Shown here: positions 3,147 to 24,323 of the stretch, piece by piece
Position numbering within the stretch: the stretch's first letter is position 1
How the letters are laid out: the number at the start of each line of letters is the position of its first letter
Virus record (IMG/VR): IMGVR_UViG_3300007907_000056
Span: 1 to 43,079 of that record
Length of the DNA: 43,079 bases
Origin: a virus
Reading direction: 5' to 3' (one strand)
The notes under the pieces: generated by a model
Told to the model about the DNA's origin: nothing
Databases searched by the model: none
What the model saw: the letters and a program-made list of their open reading frames with translations, nothing else
Made by a program: the position numbers and the translations under genes

Positions 3147-3791
3147 TTAATTCGTATCAATCCAGATATCTTTATCTTTCGGATTTGTGGGTGCTGTGCT
3201 TTGTACACTAATCATCATTCCCCCAAGTGCTGGTGCTTCTGTTTGAATTGACGCAATAAAGTCATCCCATTCAGCTTGGAAAACATCTGTAGGCACTTGA
3301 ACCATACTTGAGACAACTCCACACAACGATTGATCTAATCGTTCATCCGTGACCGTTGCAATAACTGTTGTTCCTGCGTTTACTCTTACTTGTGCAAGAC
3401 TTAATTCATAGATTAAATCGTTTCGTTCAAGTGTTGGCACTAATGGTGTAGTTGCCGGCACACCTTCTTTAACAACTACGCGTATGTCACGATTAGCGAT
3501 GTTGCGATTTAATCGAATAACGACACGGTCAATTCGTGGAAATGATGCGTTACCTGTTGCGTGAGTTAATTCGATTGGTGCAGTGTTTCGGTATAAATAA
3601 CCCTCCGCAAATGCAGCACCAATTTCAACACTTGAAACAAGTCCAACACCTTTCGACACTTTTAAAGACGGTAAATTATTTCGATAAAATACACCGTTCG
3701 TGAGTAACTCATGATAATACTTCGCAAAATCAGCAGCAGTCACTTCACGATCTGCGCCCACAGAGTCAAACATAAAAAATTCTTCTGCCAT
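3147..3791 (-). CDS. Phage baseplate/tail structural protein
   Basis: The product has 214 residues. The N-terminus (MAEEFFMFDSVGADREVTAA) and the following strand-rich segment resemble a common Gram-positive phage structural protein placed between the distal tail protein and the fibre. The middle contains the pattern RIDRVVIRLNRN typical of that family. The last residues, TAPTN...DIWIDTN, match the C-terminus of the neighbouring fibre gene, which suggests a shared small module. It starts at ATG behind a GGTGAG-type site and lies in the late operon. The role is inferred from position: a baseplate component or fibre adaptor. Confidence 0.75.
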   Translation of the reverse strand: MAEEFFMFDSVGADREVTAADFAKYYHELLTNGVFYRNNLPSLKVSKGVGLVSSVEIGAAFAEGYLYRNTAPIELTHATGNASFPRIDRVVIRLNRNIANRDIRVVVKEGVPATTPLVPTLERNDLIYELSLAQVRVNAGTTVIATVTDERLDQSLCGVVSSMVQVPTDVFQAEWDDFIASIQTEAPALGGMMISVQSTAPTNPKDKDIWIDTN

Positions 3792-3807
3792 TCATCTCAC
3801 CTCACTT

Positions 3808-4680
3808 TTATACTGCTAAATATCTCGGATAAAACTTAATCGTTACAGGTGCCTTTTCAAAATCTGCACCGGTTGAGTAGGTGAGCAAGTTATTACCCGA
3901 ATCCAATTGGAAAAATGTGCTTTGAAGATTGATATAGTTAAAAGCATTTGTTCGTGTTCCATCAACTGCTATTTTCTCCACACGTTTTTTTCCAAATGCG
4001 GTACTGATCCATAGCTTTTCACCATCTAACAAACTCTGTGCTACTTCAATGAATTTTCCTGTTGTTTCGTTTTCAATGCGAATAGGTGAAGTTGCTGGAC
4101 CTTCAAATGTAACTTCGATTGGGGTTGGTGAATCTCCCTCATTGACGACTATTCTCGATTTTGCTGTCGAATCTTGATTACCAAATATGGTTGGTAAAAT
4201 TAAAGGAAAGGTTAAACCTCCACTAAATGTTACTAGTTGTTCAATGTGTTCATTTTCCGAACGCCAATATGGGTTAGATGCGACAAATGTAACTATGCCT
4301 TTTTGCAAGACTTCTGTTCGATTGCGAGATCCATCTGGGAAAAACGGAACAGACTCAGCATTAACCTCAATTTCTCTTATTACAAATCCATTTTCATAAC
4401 GCAAGATTCCGTTATTCAACTTAGGGTTTAGCACTCTACCTAATCTAGTACGAGATTCAGAAATATCAGAGTATGTGTCACCTGTAATGAGGAACTGGAT
4501 AGGTATTATTCGCTCGTCTAATACACTACCGATCAGTGTACTACCATCTTGATACGGTGCTTTCTGTCTTTGTGTATTTGCATTAACATCCCCCAAACCA
4601 TCAACACTGACTAAATAAAAAGGTGGGCCATCAAATGTGACAGACTCACCTTTCGTATTTGTAAAGGTTAACTTCTCCAT
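3808..4680 (-). CDS. Distal tail protein (Dit/Sipho_tail family)
   Basis: The product has 290 residues with the N-terminal pattern of the Sipho_tail family: MEKLTFTNTKGESV, then a GPPFYLVSVDGLG strand region and QKAPYQDGSTLIGSVLDER. Dit proteins form the hexameric hub joining the tail tube to the baseplate. The central stretch NPYWRSENE is also typical. The gene begins right after the tape-measure stop codon, the usual Dit position in SPP1- and TP901-1-like phages. The C-terminal half is a galectin-like or beta-sandwich region by family knowledge. Confidence 0.88.
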   Translation of the reverse strand: MEKLTFTNTKGESVTFDGPPFYLVSVDGLGDVNANTQRQKAPYQDGSTLIGSVLDERIIPIQFLITGDTYSDISESRTRLGRVLNPKLNNGILRYENGFVIREIEVNAESVPFFPDGSRNRTEVLQKGIVTFVASNPYWRSENEHIEQLVTFSGGLTFPLILPTIFGNQDSTAKSRIVVNEGDSPTPIEVTFEGPATSPIRIENETTGKFIEVAQSLLDGEKLWISTAFGKKRVEKIAVDGTRTNAFNYINLQSTFFQLDSGNNLLTYSTGADFEKAPVTIKFYPRYLAV

Positions 4681-7518
4681 TTAGACCCCCCATTCCATTG
4701 CCAGTTGCCGGCTTGCTTTTAATTGTTCATTCTTGATCTCGCTTGGTGATAAAGGTGTATTTGAATTTATTTCTATGTTTTGGACTATTCCTCCACCTGT
4801 TTGTCCGATGCCTTTGTGATTCACTGACATATCCACACTCAACTCTTGTTTGATTTGACGTTTTAAAGAATCAATTTGGGAATGCGTATCTAAAGGGCTC
4901 ATTTGTAAGTCGCTCATTTGTATTGCTAATTCTGGCGAGAAAGCATTAGTTAGTCTAGTGGCCATATCAGATACTGAATTAACGGCTAAATGGCTTGTTT
5001 TGTTAATACCATTGACGATACCTGGTGCAAACCATTTTGAAATATTTTCAAAGGCACGCGATGGAGAATGAGTATCCGTATCTTGTTTAAATCTTGCTAG
5101 TAAACCCTTGGCAAAGCCACCAATGGCATCTAGACCCTCACTTATTTTTCCGGTTATTCCACTAATAACCCCTGCAATTAAATCGGCTCCTGCTTGTTTC
5201 ATTTTTCCTACAAAGGATAGAATCACGTCAGGCATTTCTCCGAACTTTTCTGAGAGTTTTTTAACTATCTCACCTAAAACTGTTACAAAGAATGATTTTA
5301 TCGTACCCCAAATTTTACTTATTGTTTCCTTAGAAAGAGCCATTTGTTTGGAGATGGCATCTTTCATCCCTTGAAAGTCACCTGTCACTAAGGCTTTCAA
5401 GAAACTTAATATATTGGTAAACGTACCCTTAATATAATTCCAAACGGTCTGTATTATAGTCTTTACGCTTTCCATGTAAGACATGATAATGTTGTAAATG
5501 GCCGGGAATTTTTCTTGTATATAGCCCATGATTTTTGCGACTGTATCAACTACAAAGGTACTTACAGCTTTCCAAACTTTAATGGTTACTTCTTTAATTT
5601 TGTCCCAGTTTGCAATGATCAAAATAGCTAAACCAACAATTGCGCCAATAACCCAACCAATAGGACCGAGTGCAATAAACCAAGCTGCTGCCATACGTCC
5701 TGCTTGCAGTAAGGATTGGACACCCATCCAAACCCATTTAGCAACCATTAATGCGGCTGTTTTAACCATTTGAGCACTAGTTATGAGCATAGATTTAAGC
5801 ATCATACCCATTCCGAGTACAAACTTCGCTCTCATTAATGCCGTAGCTGTCCATATTGCTGTAGCTGCACCGCCAAATAATGTACCGAATGCGATAATAT
5901 TAGGAGCAATTGCAATCAATAAACCTGTCATTAGTAAAACCGCGGCACCGATTTTTCCCAATATTGGATGGTTTTTCATCATTTCATTTGACCAAGCTAT
6001 AAAACCATTCACTAATTCAAGTATTTTCTCTCCCATTGGTGCAAGAGCAATACCTATATTTACAATAGCCGTAATTATATTACCTATCGTAGAGACAACA
6101 GTAGGACCATTCGTTTTTATGTAACTGATAAAGTCCTGGAATGCTTGATTTTCAGATAGGGTTGACGACCATTCTCTAAATCGTTTCATCATATCTTGTA
6201 AACTTGTCATCATATCTGCAGAAGATGGAGCGAATGCAGCAAACGTGTTAATGATCCCTTTAAACGCATCTCCGAATATGGCACGTATCTTAGGCATGTT
6301 GGTATTGACATAATCCACAAAAGTTTGAAACTTCTTGCTTTCACTTAATCCAGCAGCCCATTCAGCGAATCTCTCTGACATGGATTGAAACCCTTTTGCT
6401 GTACTTTCAGATAATGGACCAAACGCTACCATCATACTCAATACGCCTTGAGTGAAGTTGCCGAACGCTTTTCCGATAGTTTCAAGCATAGGTCCTGCCG
6501 TTGTGTTCAGGTATTTAAAGAAAGCCATCATGCTTTCGCCCTTCAACGCTTTACCTAAACTAGTTGTCAAACTCTGTACGGCTGTTACCGCTCCTCGGAA
6601 TAGTGGTATTGTCCGCCCTAGCACATCCCCCATAATCCCTAAGAAATCCGTAAAGATTTTAATTGTTGGTTTCTGCAAATTATCAGATAACTTTTTCCAC
6701 ACGCTGTTTAATTTGTTCATTGCTTTGAGTGCTGATGTTTGCTCTTTATTTAGGGATCCTTGAACTTGGGCGAGCTCTTCTAATAACTTAGCCCGTTTCT
6801 TCTCATCGGTTTCTCCTGCAAGCTTTTCTTGAATATCTTTAATGTCAGACGAAGCACCGAATACATCTTTGAGATTAGATACCGCAATAGCTGTGAACGC
6901 TCCTGCTGCAATACCTGCTGCACCGAAAGCTGATGCTAATGCAAAGGTTGAACCCGCTAAAGTACCAACCATAGGACCAAGCTGACCAATCAATCCGACT
7001 AACGTTGAGATTAGAGGTACCAGCGCAGGGGCTAATGATATTCCAATACCCCTAAAGGTCGTGGAGATCAGTTCACCCATACTTCTTATGTTTGATGCGA
7101 CTCTTCCTAGAGTTGCTTGGAATTTTTTAATACGTGCTTCAATTACGATAACTACTTTCTCGCGTGCAAGGTTTCTAGCCACTACTGCAACTTCAGCGGC
7201 TTTTCTCATGAAACGAGATATGTCAGCACCTATTGACTTGTCAGCAGGTCTTAAAACAATCTTTGTTTCTGCTTCTACTTCGCGCAAATTCCACATAAAC
7301 TCGCTAATATCAGCGCCAATATGTTTATTAGATTTCTGAGTGAATTCTTTAACCTTCGCATCAGCTTCACGCAAACCCCACATTAGGTCGTCAATGTCCA
7401 CGTCTATTGGTTTAACTGCTTCCATAGCTGTTTCCTTGACTTTCCTATCAACCTGTTTCATTTTGTTTTGAAAGTCTTTTATTTTCGCACCAATTAAGGC
7501 CTGGAAGTTTTCAATCAT
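4681..7518 (-). CDS. Tail tape measure protein
   Basis: The product has 945 residues, the largest helical protein of the window apart from the collagen fibre. Three short repeats near the N-terminus (roughly residues 35-105) share the pattern IGADIS-FM-.LREVEAE. Hydrophobic segments follow near residues 160-215 and 520-660, as expected for a tape measure that is later ejected. The C-terminal region has DTHSPSRAFENISKWFAPGI, a common motif in this family. Its position just after the frameshifted tail chaperones and before Dit is diagnostic. The length would set tail length. The start ATG follows AGGAGG. Confidence 0.93.
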   Translation of the reverse strand: MIENFQALIGAKIKDFQNKMKQVDRKVKETAMEAVKPIDVDIDDLMWGLREADAKVKEFTQKSNKHIGADISEFMWNLREVEAETKIVLRPADKSIGADISRFMRKAAEVAVVARNLAREKVVIVIEARIKKFQATLGRVASNIRSMGELISTTFRGIGISLAPALVPLISTLVGLIGQLGPMVGTLAGSTFALASAFGAAGIAAGAFTAIAVSNLKDVFGASSDIKDIQEKLAGETDEKKRAKLLEELAQVQGSLNKEQTSALKAMNKLNSVWKKLSDNLQKPTIKIFTDFLGIMGDVLGRTIPLFRGAVTAVQSLTTSLGKALKGESMMAFFKYLNTTAGPMLETIGKAFGNFTQGVLSMMVAFGPLSESTAKGFQSMSERFAEWAAGLSESKKFQTFVDYVNTNMPKIRAIFGDAFKGIINTFAAFAPSSADMMTSLQDMMKRFREWSSTLSENQAFQDFISYIKTNGPTVVSTIGNIITAIVNIGIALAPMGEKILELVNGFIAWSNEMMKNHPILGKIGAAVLLMTGLLIAIAPNIIAFGTLFGGAATAIWTATALMRAKFVLGMGMMLKSMLITSAQMVKTAALMVAKWVWMGVQSLLQAGRMAAAWFIALGPIGWVIGAIVGLAILIIANWDKIKEVTIKVWKAVSTFVVDTVAKIMGYIQEKFPAIYNIIMSYMESVKTIIQTVWNYIKGTFTNILSFLKALVTGDFQGMKDAISKQMALSKETISKIWGTIKSFFVTVLGEIVKKLSEKFGEMPDVILSFVGKMKQAGADLIAGVISGITGKISEGLDAIGGFAKGLLARFKQDTDTHSPSRAFENISKWFAPGIVNGINKTSHLAVNSVSDMATRLTNAFSPELAIQMSDLQMSPLDTHSQIDSLKRQIKQELSVDMSVNHKGIGQTGGGIVQNIEINSNTPLSPSEIKNEQLKASRQLAMEWGV

Positions 7519-17606: not shown

Positions 17607-18868
17607 CTCTTTTCATTAACTAATTTAAGATTCTTCATCTCTACATCATCAAGTCCATACCAGATAGCTGAGAAGGTATGGGGATCTATGCTGAATTCGT
17701 CTTCAATGATTTCACCATTCTTATCCACCTTGAATGTTAAATCCTGAAGTTCGCGGATAACATCTGGACATTCGTCTGAACAAATGATTCTCTTGAATCG
17801 TTTTACTTTTTTTGTGTACTGGATTCGGGAACCGGCAAACTTACGAGTGGCCATAATCCTAAAACCGTTTTGTCTAAAGAATTGAATGGTTTTAGGTTCT
17901 GCACTATCAGCCTTGATCAGATACTTCTTAAGTTCCTGTAGTTCTTCAGCAGTACGATCATCCGTCATATTGTTTTTGTAGTACTGCCAATAGATGTATA
18001 GCGTAAGTGTGCTTAGATCTACAGCCATCCTCACAACAGCGTTATAGGAATTCACAAAACCAAAGTCCATTCCATTCTTAAGCAATGGTTTTTGAATCTT
18101 GCCTATTGCCTCCATTACTTGTTCATGCGGCTGCACTTCGAATTGAGGCAACACAAGTTTACCGTTTACGCCAAAACGCCCCTTACGCGCAATGCGGTAG
18201 AGGTCTAAGTCATGCGTCTTTAAATCTTCAAGCTGTTCAATATAACTTTCAGGTAAAAATAAGTTATCGTCAGCTGTTGAATGGTGATAATACGTGTTAC
18301 CTATGACAATTGTTTTCTTTTTATATAAATCTTCATCATCCAGGACAAAGAATTTGGTTAACTCATTTTTAAAGAAATGCTTATATGTCCAATTGCTTTT
18401 GCTGACCGGGTTAGTTGATAGAATCATATACAGGTTCAAAGTTGGATGTCGTAAACGTCCAATCAGCTCTTTAAAGCCTTCGTACTTCACCTCTGAACAT
18501 TCTTCCCCCCAAACAAGCGATACGTTATTGATAGACTTTAGCTTTGCTGGCTTATCCATCCCTTTAAAAATTATCTTAGATCCGTTCGGAAAACGTATTT
18601 GCATTGGAGAAGTTACACATCTAATTTTGTGAGCTAAATCTAAATCATTTATAATTTCTTCTAGTAAGGAGAACGTTGAATCACGATGCGTATCATACAC
18701 TTCGCGGACAACTAAAGCCGTTCGTTTCTCCTCCAATAGTTTAAAAATGATTTTCAAAGCAACATGATAAGACTTGCTACTTCCATAACCGCCAACAAGG
18801 AATTGAAACTTCTGTTTCCAGTCAAACAAAAAATCCTCAAAATGAGGATTTACGGTCTTTTCAATCAT
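17603..18868 (-). CDS. Large terminase subunit
   Basis: The product has 421 residues from an ATG at 18866-18868, with GGAG upstream inside the HNH gene. The ATPase has Walker A GGYGSSKS at about residue 26-33, Walker B-like [11 protein letters not shown] at about 115, and a coupling motif LSTNP. The nuclease half has [16 protein letters not shown] with its acidic residue, and a late [14 protein letters not shown]. This is the Terminase_3/PBSX type. The start codon overlaps the last codons of the HNH gene, so its translation now depends on sequence inside the invader. Confidence 0.93.
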
Positions 18869-19406
18869 CGTAGCTCCAATAGAAACCACCTGCTTTATGT
18901 TCACTGTTTATCGCATGGAAAATTGCTCCTGGTGTCACCTTATAGATTCTTGCTGCTTCACTGCCACTTTTATAAGTCTCAAGAATCTCTTTAGTTATGG
19001 GGCAAATTCTCTTGACTTTCTTTTCAGTTCTCATCAACCCATTTTCGTAAGCATGCAAAGCGTTTTCTTTATTAGTCACCCATTCTAAGTTACCAACAAA
19101 GTTGTTGAAAGGGTCGCCGTCGATATGGTTAACCTGTGGAAGATTGTTTAGGTTAGGTATAAAGGCTTCAGCTACTAACCTATGCACCAAATAATGCCCG
19201 TCTTTTAGGCTCTTTAGATGTACCGATTTTCTTTGTTTTTTCTCGCCCTTAAATTTTATGACCTGCTGTTTCATAACTCTTTGCTGAACAGTGTAGCTTC
19301 TTCCATTCGACCTTAAAGTCACTCTCGGCAAACTTCTTATACGTCCAATATTCGAGACTTGATAACTGTCTTCATAGCCTATGATGTCTTTCCAAACTTC
19401 TTCCAT
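18861..19406 (-). CDS. HNH homing endonuclease with NUMOD4 motif, between the terminase genes
   Basis: The product has 181 residues from the ATG at 19404-19406, with AAAGGATGG upstream. Residues 1-40 have the NUMOD4 pattern ([19 protein letters not shown]). The HNH core is [19 protein letters not shown] then [19 protein letters not shown]. The C-terminus is a NUMOD-like DNA-recognition helix ([16 protein letters not shown]). The gene sits between terS and terL, and its last codons overlap the terL ribosome binding site and start. Confidence 0.92.
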
Positions 19407-19620
19407 AAGAGACCATCCTTTCATGCATTTGGTGCATATCTTATTCAAATTGAGTTGACATAATTCGAGCTATGGGAAGCTAGGATTTTTAAAAAGCCAA
19501 TATTACCAAGGCTTTAGAAGCTTCGGTTTTTATTGTTTATGCGTAATTTTATACATTGTTGATTTGAAGGGCTTTACAAGGATTCTAATAAATTATTTCC
19601 CAACTTCTGATGCATAAAAG
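19407..19620 (-). other. Intergenic region between terS and the HNH gene, with terminator-like hairpin
   Basis: On the minus strand AAAGCC-TTGGTAATATT-GGCTTT followed by TTAAAAA forms a terminator-like hairpin at 19491-19515. A smaller ATGCA/TGCAT hairpin lies just before the HNH ribosome binding site. The plus strand near 19559 has GTTGATTTGAA, also present on the minus strand near 14040. No gene is seen. A terminator between terS and terL would be unusual and may have arrived with the endonuclease. Confidence 0.45.
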
Positions 19621-21692: not shown

Positions 21693-21905
21693 TTATCGAA
21701 TAACTTTCTTCACCAGACGCTTAGGTTTATTTAGTACGACCTGACTCTTTAATCGTGTATCTCGAATAAGTGCCCACTTAGTTTGATAATAGATGGGTTC
21801 TTTATTTTCTTTTGGTATGTTGGCAATTGTAGAAATGCACTCTTTAATCGCCCTTACCATTCGGTCAATGGATTGGATAAAATCGGTTATCGCACTAGCC
21901 GTCAC
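21693..21905 (-). CDS. Small basic hypothetical protein
   Basis: The product has 70 residues from a GTG start with GGAGG upstream, overlapping the helicase stop by 4 bp. It has an N-terminal helix (TDFIQSIDRMVRAIKECI) and a very basic C-terminus (VVLNKPKRLVKKVIR). The composition suggests nucleic acid contact, but no family is recognised. Confidence 0.65.
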   Translation of the reverse strand: MTASAITDFIQSIDRMVRAIKECISTIANIPKENKEPIYYQTKWALIRDTRLKSQVVLNKPKRLVKKVIR

Positions 21906-23278
21906 ACATACTCCTCCATTCTTGCTTTAACAGCTTCTAGTAAGGCATCTTGACCTTTCTCTTTGCCCTGCAATACGTTCAATACGTGTTGGTCGATTGT
22001 ATCCTCGGTTAAGATGTGATGAATAATGACGGTCTCATCTTGCCCCTGTCTATGCAACCTCGCATTCGCCTGTTGGTACAATTCAAGGGACCATGTAAGT
22101 CCAAACCAAACTATGATGTGACCTCCATCTTGTAAATTAAGTCCATGTCCTGCAGAAGCTGGATGCGCCAGAAGAAGTTCAATCTCTCCTGCATTCCATC
22201 TCTCTATTGATCTATCAGAGTCTATTGGAATGGCTTGCTTAAACTTTTTTAGGATTCGATCTTTATCATGCTTAAAACTGTAAAACAAAAGAACGGGTTG
22301 CCCTTGTGCAGCTTCAACGATTTCTTCTAAGGCATTTAACTTTTGGTCGTGTATTTGTTGCACGCCTGCATTCTCGTTATAGCTTGCCCCATTTGACAGC
22401 TGCAGTAACTTCTGACTTAAAACTCCAGCGGTTGATGCAACGATATCGCCTTCCATGTATTCAAGGATTCGATCACGTTCTAGTTTTTTGTAAAGCTCTC
22501 TTTCTTTCAGACTTAAATCTACGGTGACGATGTTATCGATTCGTTCAGGCATGTCTAAATGGTCTTTAGCTTTCATCGATACACAAACATCTGAGATTAA
22601 ACTATATATATTTTGTTCAGCTTCTGGTTTAGGCTCATATTTATAAACGATTCGTGCGTTATTCGGATCCGTAGAAGATGGATAAAAATAACGATTTCGA
22701 TAGTGGGTGACTGTTTTTCCTAAACGCTTTCCCTGGTCAATTAAATACACTTGACTCCATAAGTCCAACAAACTATTAGGTGCCGGTGTTCCAGTTAGTC
22801 CAACGAAACGTTTAAAGGCCGGTCGTATTTTTCGTAAGGCTTTAAACCGATTCGATTTAGGGCTCTTAAAACTTGAAAGCTCGTCCACTACCAACATGTC
22901 AAACGGCATTGGTTTGCCTTCATAATGATTCACTAACCATTCCACATTCTCACGGTTGATCACGTAAATGTCTGCATCTTTTTGCAAGGCTTGCCTGCGC
23001 TTTCTCTCGTCACCCAACACTTTGGATATACGAAGATGTTTCGTATGCTCCCACTTAAAAACCTCTCTGCTCCACGTATCTTCTGCTACTCGTTTTGGTG
23101 CGATTACCAACACTTTAGTAATCTCTAAGCTGTTATATATAAGCTGTTCAACAGCGGTCAATGTGGAAACTGTTTTTCCAAGCTAAAGACCCATATCTAA
23201 AAACAAGCCGTATGAGTCATTCTTTAAAATCTGCTCAATTGCGAAAGATTGATAAGTATGCGGTTTGAAATTAACCAT
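21902..23278 (-). pseudogene. SNF2-family DEAD/DEAH helicase interrupted by an amber codon in Walker A
   Basis: Read through, the gene has 458 residues from ATG at 23276-23278 behind GGAGGTGATG. Motif I reads LDMGL-stop-LGKT, with TAG at 23183-23185. The expected GGT CTT GGA AAA ACA carries six extra bases. Later motifs are intact: DELSSFK (motif II), GLTGTPAPN (III), SAGHGLNLQ (V) and QANARLHRQGQDE (VI). Phage SNF2-type helicases normally follow a VRR-NUC gene, as here, and act in replication or recombination. A restart at TTG 23161 would lack Walker A. Possible causes are a real mutation, a scar of endonuclease activity next door, or a sequencing error. Confidence 0.85.
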
Positions 23279-23726
23279 GGTTGACATCACCTCCATATCT
23301 TGCATCATGTAATCTATGCCAGTTCAAATGCTCTTTTTGTGATTTAAATACCATTAAATTATCAGGGTGGTTATTTCTCGCATTATTATCTATATGGTGG
23401 ACCACTTCCCCTGGAAGTAAGGCTCTCCCTAACTTTTCTTCCATTACCATTCGGTGAACGTGTCTACCAAACTTCTTTGCATAGGTGCGTCCATTATTCG
23501 TACATTTTTTCTCTAGCTGCTTATTTCTAATTTTCTCCCTTTCAGTTAAAGTGAGTCCGCCTTTTTGATTCACTCTTTTATCTAGATTGTCGATACCCAT
23601 TTGTTTAACCCTACAATCCTTGCTGCAAAAAGATCTTGACCCTTTCTTTTTACCAGGATATCTTTCAAAGGTCGTTCCGCAATTAAAGCAAGTGGATTGA
23701 CGATCGTACTGTCTAGGTCTGCCCAA
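23271..23726 (-). CDS. HNH endonuclease between the VRR-NUC and helicase genes
   Basis: The product has 151 residues, with a TTG start overlapping the end of the VRR-NUC gene. An N-terminal zinc finger (CFNCGTTFERY...FCSKDC) and a C-terminal HNH core (VHRMVMEEKLGRALLPGEVV then HHIDNNARNNHPDNLMVF) are intact. The last codons (YGGDVNHG) encode the ribosome binding site and start codon of the helicase. The invader therefore sits exactly at a gene boundary and supplies the downstream start. Confidence 0.9.
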   Translation of the reverse strand: MGRPRQYDRQSTCFNCGTTFERYPGKKKGSRSFCSKDCRVKQMGIDNLDKRVNQKGGLTLTEREKIRNKQLEKKCTNNGRTYAKKFGRHVHRMVMEEKLGRALLPGEVVHHIDNNARNNHPDNLMVFKSQKEHLNWHRLHDARYGGDVNHG

Positions 23727-24009
23727 GGTTATCCCTCACCTCTCTATTAATCAATTCGTCTACTTGTTCTTTACTATCAACAACGTACACTGGATGCCCT
23801 AGTTTTAAAAACTCTCGATGGCATTTAGATTGCAAAGGTCTTGTCTTCTCACCAGGTGCTTTTACTTCTACGAAAAAATGTTTCCCTCCAGTAAGTAAAC
23901 ATAGGCGATCAGGTACACCTGATTTTCCAGGAGACACGAACTTTAAACACACCCCACCATTTTCCTCAATGTTCGTTTTTAGATACTTTTCAACATCTCT
24001 TTCTCTCAT
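23713..24009 (-). CDS. VRR-NUC domain nuclease
   Basis: The product has 98 residues: MRERDVEKYLKTNIEENGG, then KFVSPGKSGVPDRLCLLTGG, then HFFVEVKAPGEKTRPLQSKC. This is the stand-alone VRR-NUC (PD-(D/E)xK) fold with the catalytic D of VPDR and the E-x-K motif. These phage nucleases are usually next to an SNF2-type helicase and a VapE-like protein, as here. They act in replication or recombination. Confidence 0.92.
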   Translation of the reverse strand: MRERDVEKYLKTNIEENGGVCLKFVSPGKSGVPDRLCLLTGGKHFFVEVKAPGEKTRPLQSKCHREFLKLGHPVYVVDSKEQVDELINREVRDNLGQT

Positions 24010-24323
24010 GTCATAAAAACACCTTCCATATTTTAGGCGTGGGCGTGTGGGCGTAAAAACATAGCTTTTAACATATATACTGTATTAGGCGTATTAGGCG
24101 TAATGTGTACCTATTATCACTCCCTATATTAAATATAAGTTTTATTCTATTATTTTTGTCTTTACGCCCACACTAAGGCTTTACCCCTTACCGTTCTAAG
24201 TGTTGAGGTGTGGGCGCAAGGTGTGGGCGTAATCAAAATGACGACCACAACGCCCACACTAGTAAAAATTACCAATTTTATTACGCCCACACCTAGGACC
24301 GTTACGCCCACACCTGTTTTTGA
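24010..24323. other. Candidate replication origin with iterons and an AT-rich block
   Basis: This 314 bp gap has no gene. The 12 bp motif GTGTGGGCGTAA occurs seven times with at most two changes. Plus copies start at 24045, 24208 and 24221, and minus copies at 24162, 24248, 24281 and 24302. Weaker GGCGT copies are near 24039, 24084 and 24093. An AT-rich stretch from 24061 to 24160 lies between copy clusters and may be the unwinding element. The site adjoins the primase/helicase gene. This is the layout of an iteron origin. Confidence 0.75.

Follow-up and report, generated by a model that had tools for sequence, protein, structure and literature searches.

In a 43,079-nucleotide stretch of viral DNA (IMG/VR record IMGVR_UViG_3300007907_000056, hereafter the window), the gene for an SNF2-type helicase is interrupted within its Walker A motif by an in-frame amber codon that stands between two identical leucine codons (CTT-TAG-CTT). 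Having compared this locus with other loci and relatives (designated by L-numbers), we propose that CTT-TAG-CTT is a natural in-frame ribosomal stop-hop and, at the same time, the protective allele of a homing-endonuclease cassette, a reading to which we assign, on the strength of sequence comparisons, a probability of roughly three in four. Inserts of this kind are best read as being removed by the ribosome, which would make them a minimal relative of the mobA/gene 60 system of bacteriophage T4.

A stop codon between matching codons in the Walker A motif

On the minus strand, the letters around the stop are GAT ATG GGT CTT TAG CTT GGA AAA ACA. As a first-pass annotation of this DNA had stated, the TAG lies in frame within Walker A, 93 bases past the A of the helicase ATG, next to an HNH endonuclease gene; this gene (HNH_3) is situated directly upstream. 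The TAG is the sole interruption of a frame that is open to position 21902. When it is read as glutamine, the translation matches the Pfam domains SNF2-rel_dom (7.1e-24) and Helicase_C (2.6e-07), as well as PHROG 62, DNA helicase (1.4e-172), in keeping with the annotation's description of an otherwise complete frame; 2064 phage records match this helicase over at least 80% of the query. The Walker A motif of the window equals that of its relatives only if six bases are skipped. Since relatives that lack the insert, for example L003 and phiFL4A, read DMGLGKT, the insert comprises six bases, either CTTTAG or TAGCTT, which agrees with the six added bases and the duplicated CTT that the annotation had described. 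What it overlooked is that the duplicated CTT around the stop would constitute a take-off and landing pair.

Among 15 stops in the window that are preceded by at least 25 open codons and followed by at least 100, CTT-TAG-CTT is the only one flanked by codons for one and the same amino acid; the layout thus exceeds chance. The peptide encoded upstream of the stop is only about 31 residues long, and neither a second helicase copy that would make this gene dispensable nor a phage-encoded suppressor tRNA was found within the window.

Recurrence of the insert among SNF2 genes

Scans of viral contigs, together with one Planococcus genome, identified 32 SNF2 genes (that of the window included) with an insert at exactly this position, six nucleotides long in 23 and seven nucleotides long in nine. 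The stop is TAG in 11, TGA in 20 and TAA in one of these loci, and the flanking codons are CTN/CTN or GTC/GTC, the sole exception being CTT/CCC. The closest relative found, L005 from Planococcus sp. A6, is 83% identical after the stop and has CTG TAG CTG at the same place; thus, between CTT/CTT in the window and CTG/CTG in L005, both flanks have changed alike.

The association between the stop and the matching codons emerged from scans of differing stringency. A search of viral contigs for Walker A sequences containing CTN-TAG-CTN returned seven stretches, all of them helicases. When any codon was allowed on either side of TAG, 56 stretches were obtained, nine of them in SNF2 frames: seven with CTN/CTN, one with GTC/GTC (L017, which reads EMGV*VGKT) and one with CTT/CCC (L027). 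The same scan with TGA gave at least 120 stretches and, among the matches listed, 11 in SNF2 frames, all CTN/CTN. The stretches outside SNF2 frames (47 of 56 for TAG; 109 of 120 among the TGA matches listed) were set aside by eye as chance occurrences. If instead the middle codon was left free (CTN-NNN-CTN), each of the 19 stretches found had a stop there (TAG in seven, TGA in 11, TAA in one), and none had a sense codon. Because CTN was prescribed at both flanks in two of these scans, only the two free ones were used to determine how often the codons match; in these, 19 of 20 SNF2 frames (18 CTN/CTN and one GTC/GTC) encode the same amino acid before and after the stop, namely eight of nine with TAG and 11 of 11 among the TGA matches listed.

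Allowing 1–31 extra bases after TAA or TGA produced 26 stretches; nine of these were in SNF2 frames, where the surplus was in every case a single base (CTN TGA N CTN), while the other 17, which were short or unlike frames, were judged by eye to be chance. With TAG, the corresponding search gave four stretches, none of them SNF2. Not all loci are distinct: L089 and L095 are the same in the helicase, and L070 and L072 are nearly identical.

Queries with X at the stop, run against 50,697 phage records, revealed no insert in named cultured phages among the matches listed (30 of 327, four of four and 15 of 15 records), these matches being either gapped or shorter than the query by the length of the insert. 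A single ambiguous match, to Ruegeria phage RpAliso, was rejected, as it reads GLGKT and has no insert. An intron was also considered and rejected, with no Rfam match at gathering score in 11 sources.

Apparent coding constraint downstream of the stop

Beyond the stop, each of the 32 genes retains a long frame; three of them (L067, L072 and L017) run off the available sequence. Downstream of the stop, L070 and L072, which both have CTT TGA CTA, differ by 38 synonymous and two non-synonymous changes, and the ratio of non-synonymous to synonymous differences per site (pN/pS) between the window and L005 is 0.13, with synonymous sites saturated. On a tree of 83 rows, the presence of the insert requires 11 changes, at least ten of them forced by well-supported branches, versus 25.1 in shuffles, and clades of several diverged insert-bearing genes are evident; the change count is a rough one, as the controls did not include the DEMGL subfamily, L017 was left out, and eight controls or relatives were short or long-branched.

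Linkage to endonuclease genes and foreign tracts ending at the insert

Profile searches placed an intact endonuclease gene directly beside 13 of the 32 insert-bearing helicases. In 12 of these it is an HNH gene directly upstream (Table 1), and in L014 a GIY-YIG gene directly downstream; a further locus, L075, has a broken HNH gene. Among 50 control helicases without the insert, none has an HNH gene directly upstream and at most one was counted as linked (on account of a remnant in L132). At least 600 bases of upstream sequence were present in 43 of the 50 controls and in 29 of 31 insert-bearing loci. The difference is pronounced both for any adjoining endonuclease (13 of 32 versus 1 of 50, p=8e-6) and for upstream HNH genes (12 of 32 versus 0 of 43, p=9e-6), although these values are indicative, because the loci are not fully independent. 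For the controls, Pfam covered only 25 of 39 families, and the search with hidden Markov models, which detected one far, weak match (L131) and the HNH-like remnant of L132, provides the firmer count. The comparison with relatives lacking the HNH gene that the first-pass annotation had proposed gave a consistent picture: all six close insert-free relatives (L002, L003, L004, L006, L007 and phiFL4A, with L003 and L004 identical in the sequence shown) are devoid of an HNH gene.

Two loci could be compared with near relatives that lack the insert. Around the helicase, L072 hardly differs from the Enterococcus phage phiFL4A, except that only L072 possesses the insert and the HNH gene; mismatches between the two are concentrated in the helicase 5' end (17 of 88 positions), as opposed to 9 of 240 and 28 of 900 after the landing codon (p=2e-5). 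Similarly, L064 differs from L003 (Salimicrobium) at 35 of 96 positions before the insert and at 44 of 300 after it (p=1.4e-5), and the leader of L064 resembles, by eye, the tail of the HNH gene of the window and L005. A foreign tract with the endonuclease gene at one end and the insert at the other is, as judged from these alignments, the mark of homing, with the putative cut near Walker A. For the window itself, no insert-free relative close enough for such a comparison was found. L070 has the insert and the 5' end as in L072 and no HNH gene; since a copy of AAAAGGAGTGAT stands on either side of the HNH gene in L072, L070 looks, by eye, like the product of a deletion, which suggests that the insert outlives the endonuclease.

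Several further arrangements of nuclease and helicase sequences were noted. In L065, L067 and L075, the helicase gene itself contains HNH sequence, immediately ahead of Walker A. The HNH frame of L077 (3976-4536, minus strand) begins by repeating the helicase N-terminus, and the cassette therefore seems to carry its own replacement 5' end. In the region about 747-1214 bases past Walker A, the insert-free helicase of L132 shows an in-frame stop and, beyond it, residual HNH-like sequence fused into the C-terminal part; this looks like a homing event elsewhere in the same gene that has since decayed. Shortly downstream of the insert-bearing helicase of L073, which has no HNH neighbor, is a TnpB-like gene (3760-4965, minus strand; Cas12f1-like_TNB, 2e-22); an RNA-guided nuclease could take the role of the endonuclease there.

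Proposed mechanism and alternative explanations

An invariable stop, leucine or valine codons flanking it and a length restricted to six or seven nucleotides together provide the conditions under which a P-site tRNA may let go of the mRNA and pair with it again. In the window, UAG would enter the A site and the peptidyl-tRNA(Leu) would release CUU, skip six bases and re-pair with the second CUU, so that decoding would resume at GGA; the predicted product contains DMGLGKT, as do insert-free relatives. At the level of DNA, the adjoining HNH endonuclease, or another endonuclease, would cut or nick the conserved Walker A sequence of uninterrupted helicase genes, and in the ensuing repair the recipient would acquire the insert together with the helicase 5' end and the endonuclease gene. 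Once in place, the six bases would destroy the recognition site, and the ribosome would in effect 'splice' them out. Competing phages can, in addition, benefit from such endonucleases (PMC12908238), and an insert that blocks cutting could therefore pay off even for a phage without an endonuclease of its own. We consider it somewhat more probable than the contrary that stop inserts of 6–7 nucleotides between matched codons serve as a general immunity allele wherever SNF2 Walker A DNA is attacked by homing endonucleases, which would belong to several unrelated kinds (GIY-YIG and more than one family of HNH), that they arose or spread some ten times or more, that they outlive the endonuclease, and that they are the first natural in-frame stop-hops.

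A number of observations weigh against this proposal. The flanking codons are identical in only 15 of 31 pairs, the others differing at the third base (in L027 also at the second), so that in about half of the pairs one tRNA must read both codons; in L027 (CTT-TAG-CCC), which has an adjoining HNH gene, the landing codon is mismatched. No adjoining intact endonuclease is present at 19 of the 32 insert-bearing helicases, among them the five-locus L076 group, which has no endonuclease adjoining. The DEMGL-type helicases of L065, L066, L067 and L075 have, in addition, a break upstream of Walker A, where HNH sequence or, in L066, another stretch separates it from the part with the Q motif; these copies, which are reminiscent of split phage enzymes, may be impaired. 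Part of the signal in the ratio of non-synonymous to synonymous substitution rates (dN/dS) may stem from divergence older than the insert. Among 398 sampled genomes of the class to which L005 belongs, the pattern was found in one only, the already known L005. Moreover, no clear stimulator of a hop was detected: the 3' structure of insert-bearing genes and controls differs with p=0.08 by z-score and p=0.03 by raw energy, and Shine-Dalgarno-like matches before the site are not enriched over controls (p=0.89). The hop may thus be inefficient, with the helicase needed in small amounts, or the signal may lie elsewhere.

Two explanations offered by the first-pass annotation, a recent knock-out or a scar of endonuclease cutting, would make the helicase a recent pseudogene and the matching codons a short duplication. 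A layout of this kind would indeed arise if CTT were duplicated and three further bases were added, an HNH gene does lie alongside, the helicases of the four DEMGL-type loci are split as well, and a truly decayed relative exists in L132. However, scars are not expected to have a stop in the middle in 19 of 19 cases; long SNF2 frames persist in all 32 genes, with 38 synonymous to two non-synonymous changes between L070 and L072; the flanks have changed in concert between the window and L005; and the at least ten forced changes on the tree are accompanied by clades of several diverged insert-bearing genes. We therefore regard a dead gene as unlikely: of the scar idea, the relevance of the HNH gene has been upheld by the 13 adjoining endonucleases, while the notion of a dead-gene scar, like that of a plain knock-out, does not accord with the invariable stop. 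Slightly less probable, in our estimation, is a hop whose role is regulatory, the stop setting a low or conditional helicase level, for instance via release-factor supply, with the endonuclease link being secondary. Such regulation would fit the 19 insert-bearing genes that persist without an intact adjoining endonuclease, as well as L070, which retains the insert without HNH, and regulated bypassing is raised as a hoped-for case in a 2016 review (PMC5009743). Yet the element is found in the Walker A motif of several SNF2 subfamilies, sporadically on the tree, and foreign tracts end at it, which is a better fit to homing, and no conserved stimulator was found.

Translation might instead proceed through the stop, by readthrough or, for the seven-nucleotide form, by +1 frameshifting, adding two residues to the P-loop (MGL-x-LGKT). 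Leu-x-Leu insertions are chemically possible, and in L077, L079, L090 and L099 the letters CTT TGA C are those of the shift site that PMC5009743 gives for RF2. Nevertheless, the absence of sense codons in the middle of CTN-NNN-CTN (0 of 19) suggests that a two-residue insertion is not tolerated, and seven-nucleotide forms with CTA TGA A or CTG TGA A/G should offer no good +1 re-pairing. Readthrough cannot explain the seven-nucleotide form, given that all nine such loci carry exactly one extra base, and it needs no matched landing codon, although 19 of 20 match (the TGA part being among the matches listed). Hopping alone covers both lengths, and we consider decoding through the stop decidedly improbable. 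As for an error of sequencing or assembly, which the first-pass annotation had also considered and which is always a general possibility, the same element with differing codons (CTT/CTT, CTG/CTG, GTC/GTC) in 31 other contigs, which are separate and come from many samples and isolates, and in both lengths, leaves it next to no probability.

Relation to known bypassing systems

The helicase inserts resemble T4 gene 60/mobA in that the stop follows right after the take-off codon, a matching landing codon is present, and the insert interrupts a phage DNA-metabolism gene with an HNH endonuclease nearby (PMC5009743, PMC2988022, PMC11194080). The 50-nucleotide bypassed insert of gene 60 has been proposed as a protection against cleavage (PMC5009743, PMC2988022, PMC11194080). 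In contrast to that length, the helicase inserts comprise only 6 or 7 nucleotides, the six-nucleotide form being in frame; their take-off codon is CTN (or GTC) rather than GGA; no clear mRNA structure was found for them; and, unlike gene 60, they recur in many phages at one enzyme motif. Programmed bypassing of the gene 60 type is also marked by stem-loop stimulators in the mRNA and by a nascent-peptide signal (KKYK) at a set distance. A helicase insert is almost as short as a bypassed insert can be.

Weiss et al. (1987) reportedly obtained stop-hops in Escherichia coli with synthetic sites, including some of the CUU UAG CUN type. Those were constructs, whereas the helicase insert is a natural, recurrent element. 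According to the 2016 review (PMC5009743), natural in-frame stop-hops were not known at that time, and among the matches listed in searches of the open-access literature we found no report of one.

Other systems share individual features. The mitochondrial elements of Magnusiomyces capitatus are likewise short inserts that do no harm because they are bypassed, the A site being occupied by an unused codon, but they are mitochondrial, occur in many genes and often have an imperfect landing match (PMC5009743). Introns and inteins also reside in highly conserved coding DNA, are linked to homing endonucleases and are removed during expression (PMC2988022, PMC12908238); six bases, however, cannot splice, and removal would fall to the ribosome. 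The +1 site of RF2 (prfB), CUU UGA C, similarly has a leucine codon followed by an A-site stop, and the same letters are found in four of the nine seven-nucleotide loci; in contrast to it, the helicase inserts lack Shine-Dalgarno enrichment and have a second CTN directly after the stop, and the six-nucleotide form has no use for a +1 shift.

In-frame stop-hopping has hitherto come from constructs, and T4 gene 60, the best-studied phage bypass, has long stood almost alone. If the proposal is correct, next to no sequence suffices to build a bypass, and some thirty natural sites are available for study; genes that resemble pseudogenes would be explained; and homing cassettes would have a third way, besides introns and inteins, to occupy an essential motif while leaving the gene functional, with phages using the ribosome itself as a splicing device.

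Features of the window and its surroundings

The gene order in the window is VapE-like, VRR-NUC, HNH_3, helicase (Table 1).

Table 1. Features at the helicase locus of the window, and loci with an upstream HNH gene
Feature	Position	Strand	Remarks
SNF2-type helicase gene	21902..23278	-	ATG at 23278; product expected only with the stop bypassed
Putative landing codon CTT	23180..23182	-	Proposed from the codon match; decoding expected to restart at GGA 23179-23177
Amber codon TAG, in frame	23183..23185	-	Sequence
Putative take-off codon CTT (Leu of DMGL)	23186..23188	-	Sequence and matched-codon survey
Helicase 5' end, from HNH gene to putative hop	23189..23278	-	Co-converted (foreign) in L072 and L064; in the window itself presumed
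HNH_3 endonuclease gene, 151 residues, zinc-finger-like N-terminal part	23271..23726	-	HNH_3 1.1e-10; 8-base overlap with helicase start; proposed homing endonuclease
VRR-NUC nuclease gene	23713..24009	-	Immediately precedes the helicase in HNH-free relatives, e.g., phiFL4A gp27
Intact HNH gene directly upstream of the helicase (12 of 32 loci)			Window, L005, L011, L017, L027, L065, L067, L068, L072, L077, L079, L090

A second, weak HNH-like frame (window 18860-19469, minus strand; E 7e-4 with a home-made profile) was noted near the small terminase gene. Several copies of GTGTGGGCGT / ACGCCCACAC occupy the stretch that separates the VapE-like gene from the VRR-NUC gene (window ~24040-24320), possibly a replication origin or a regulator site, and the same motif occurs at the same place in L064 and L003.
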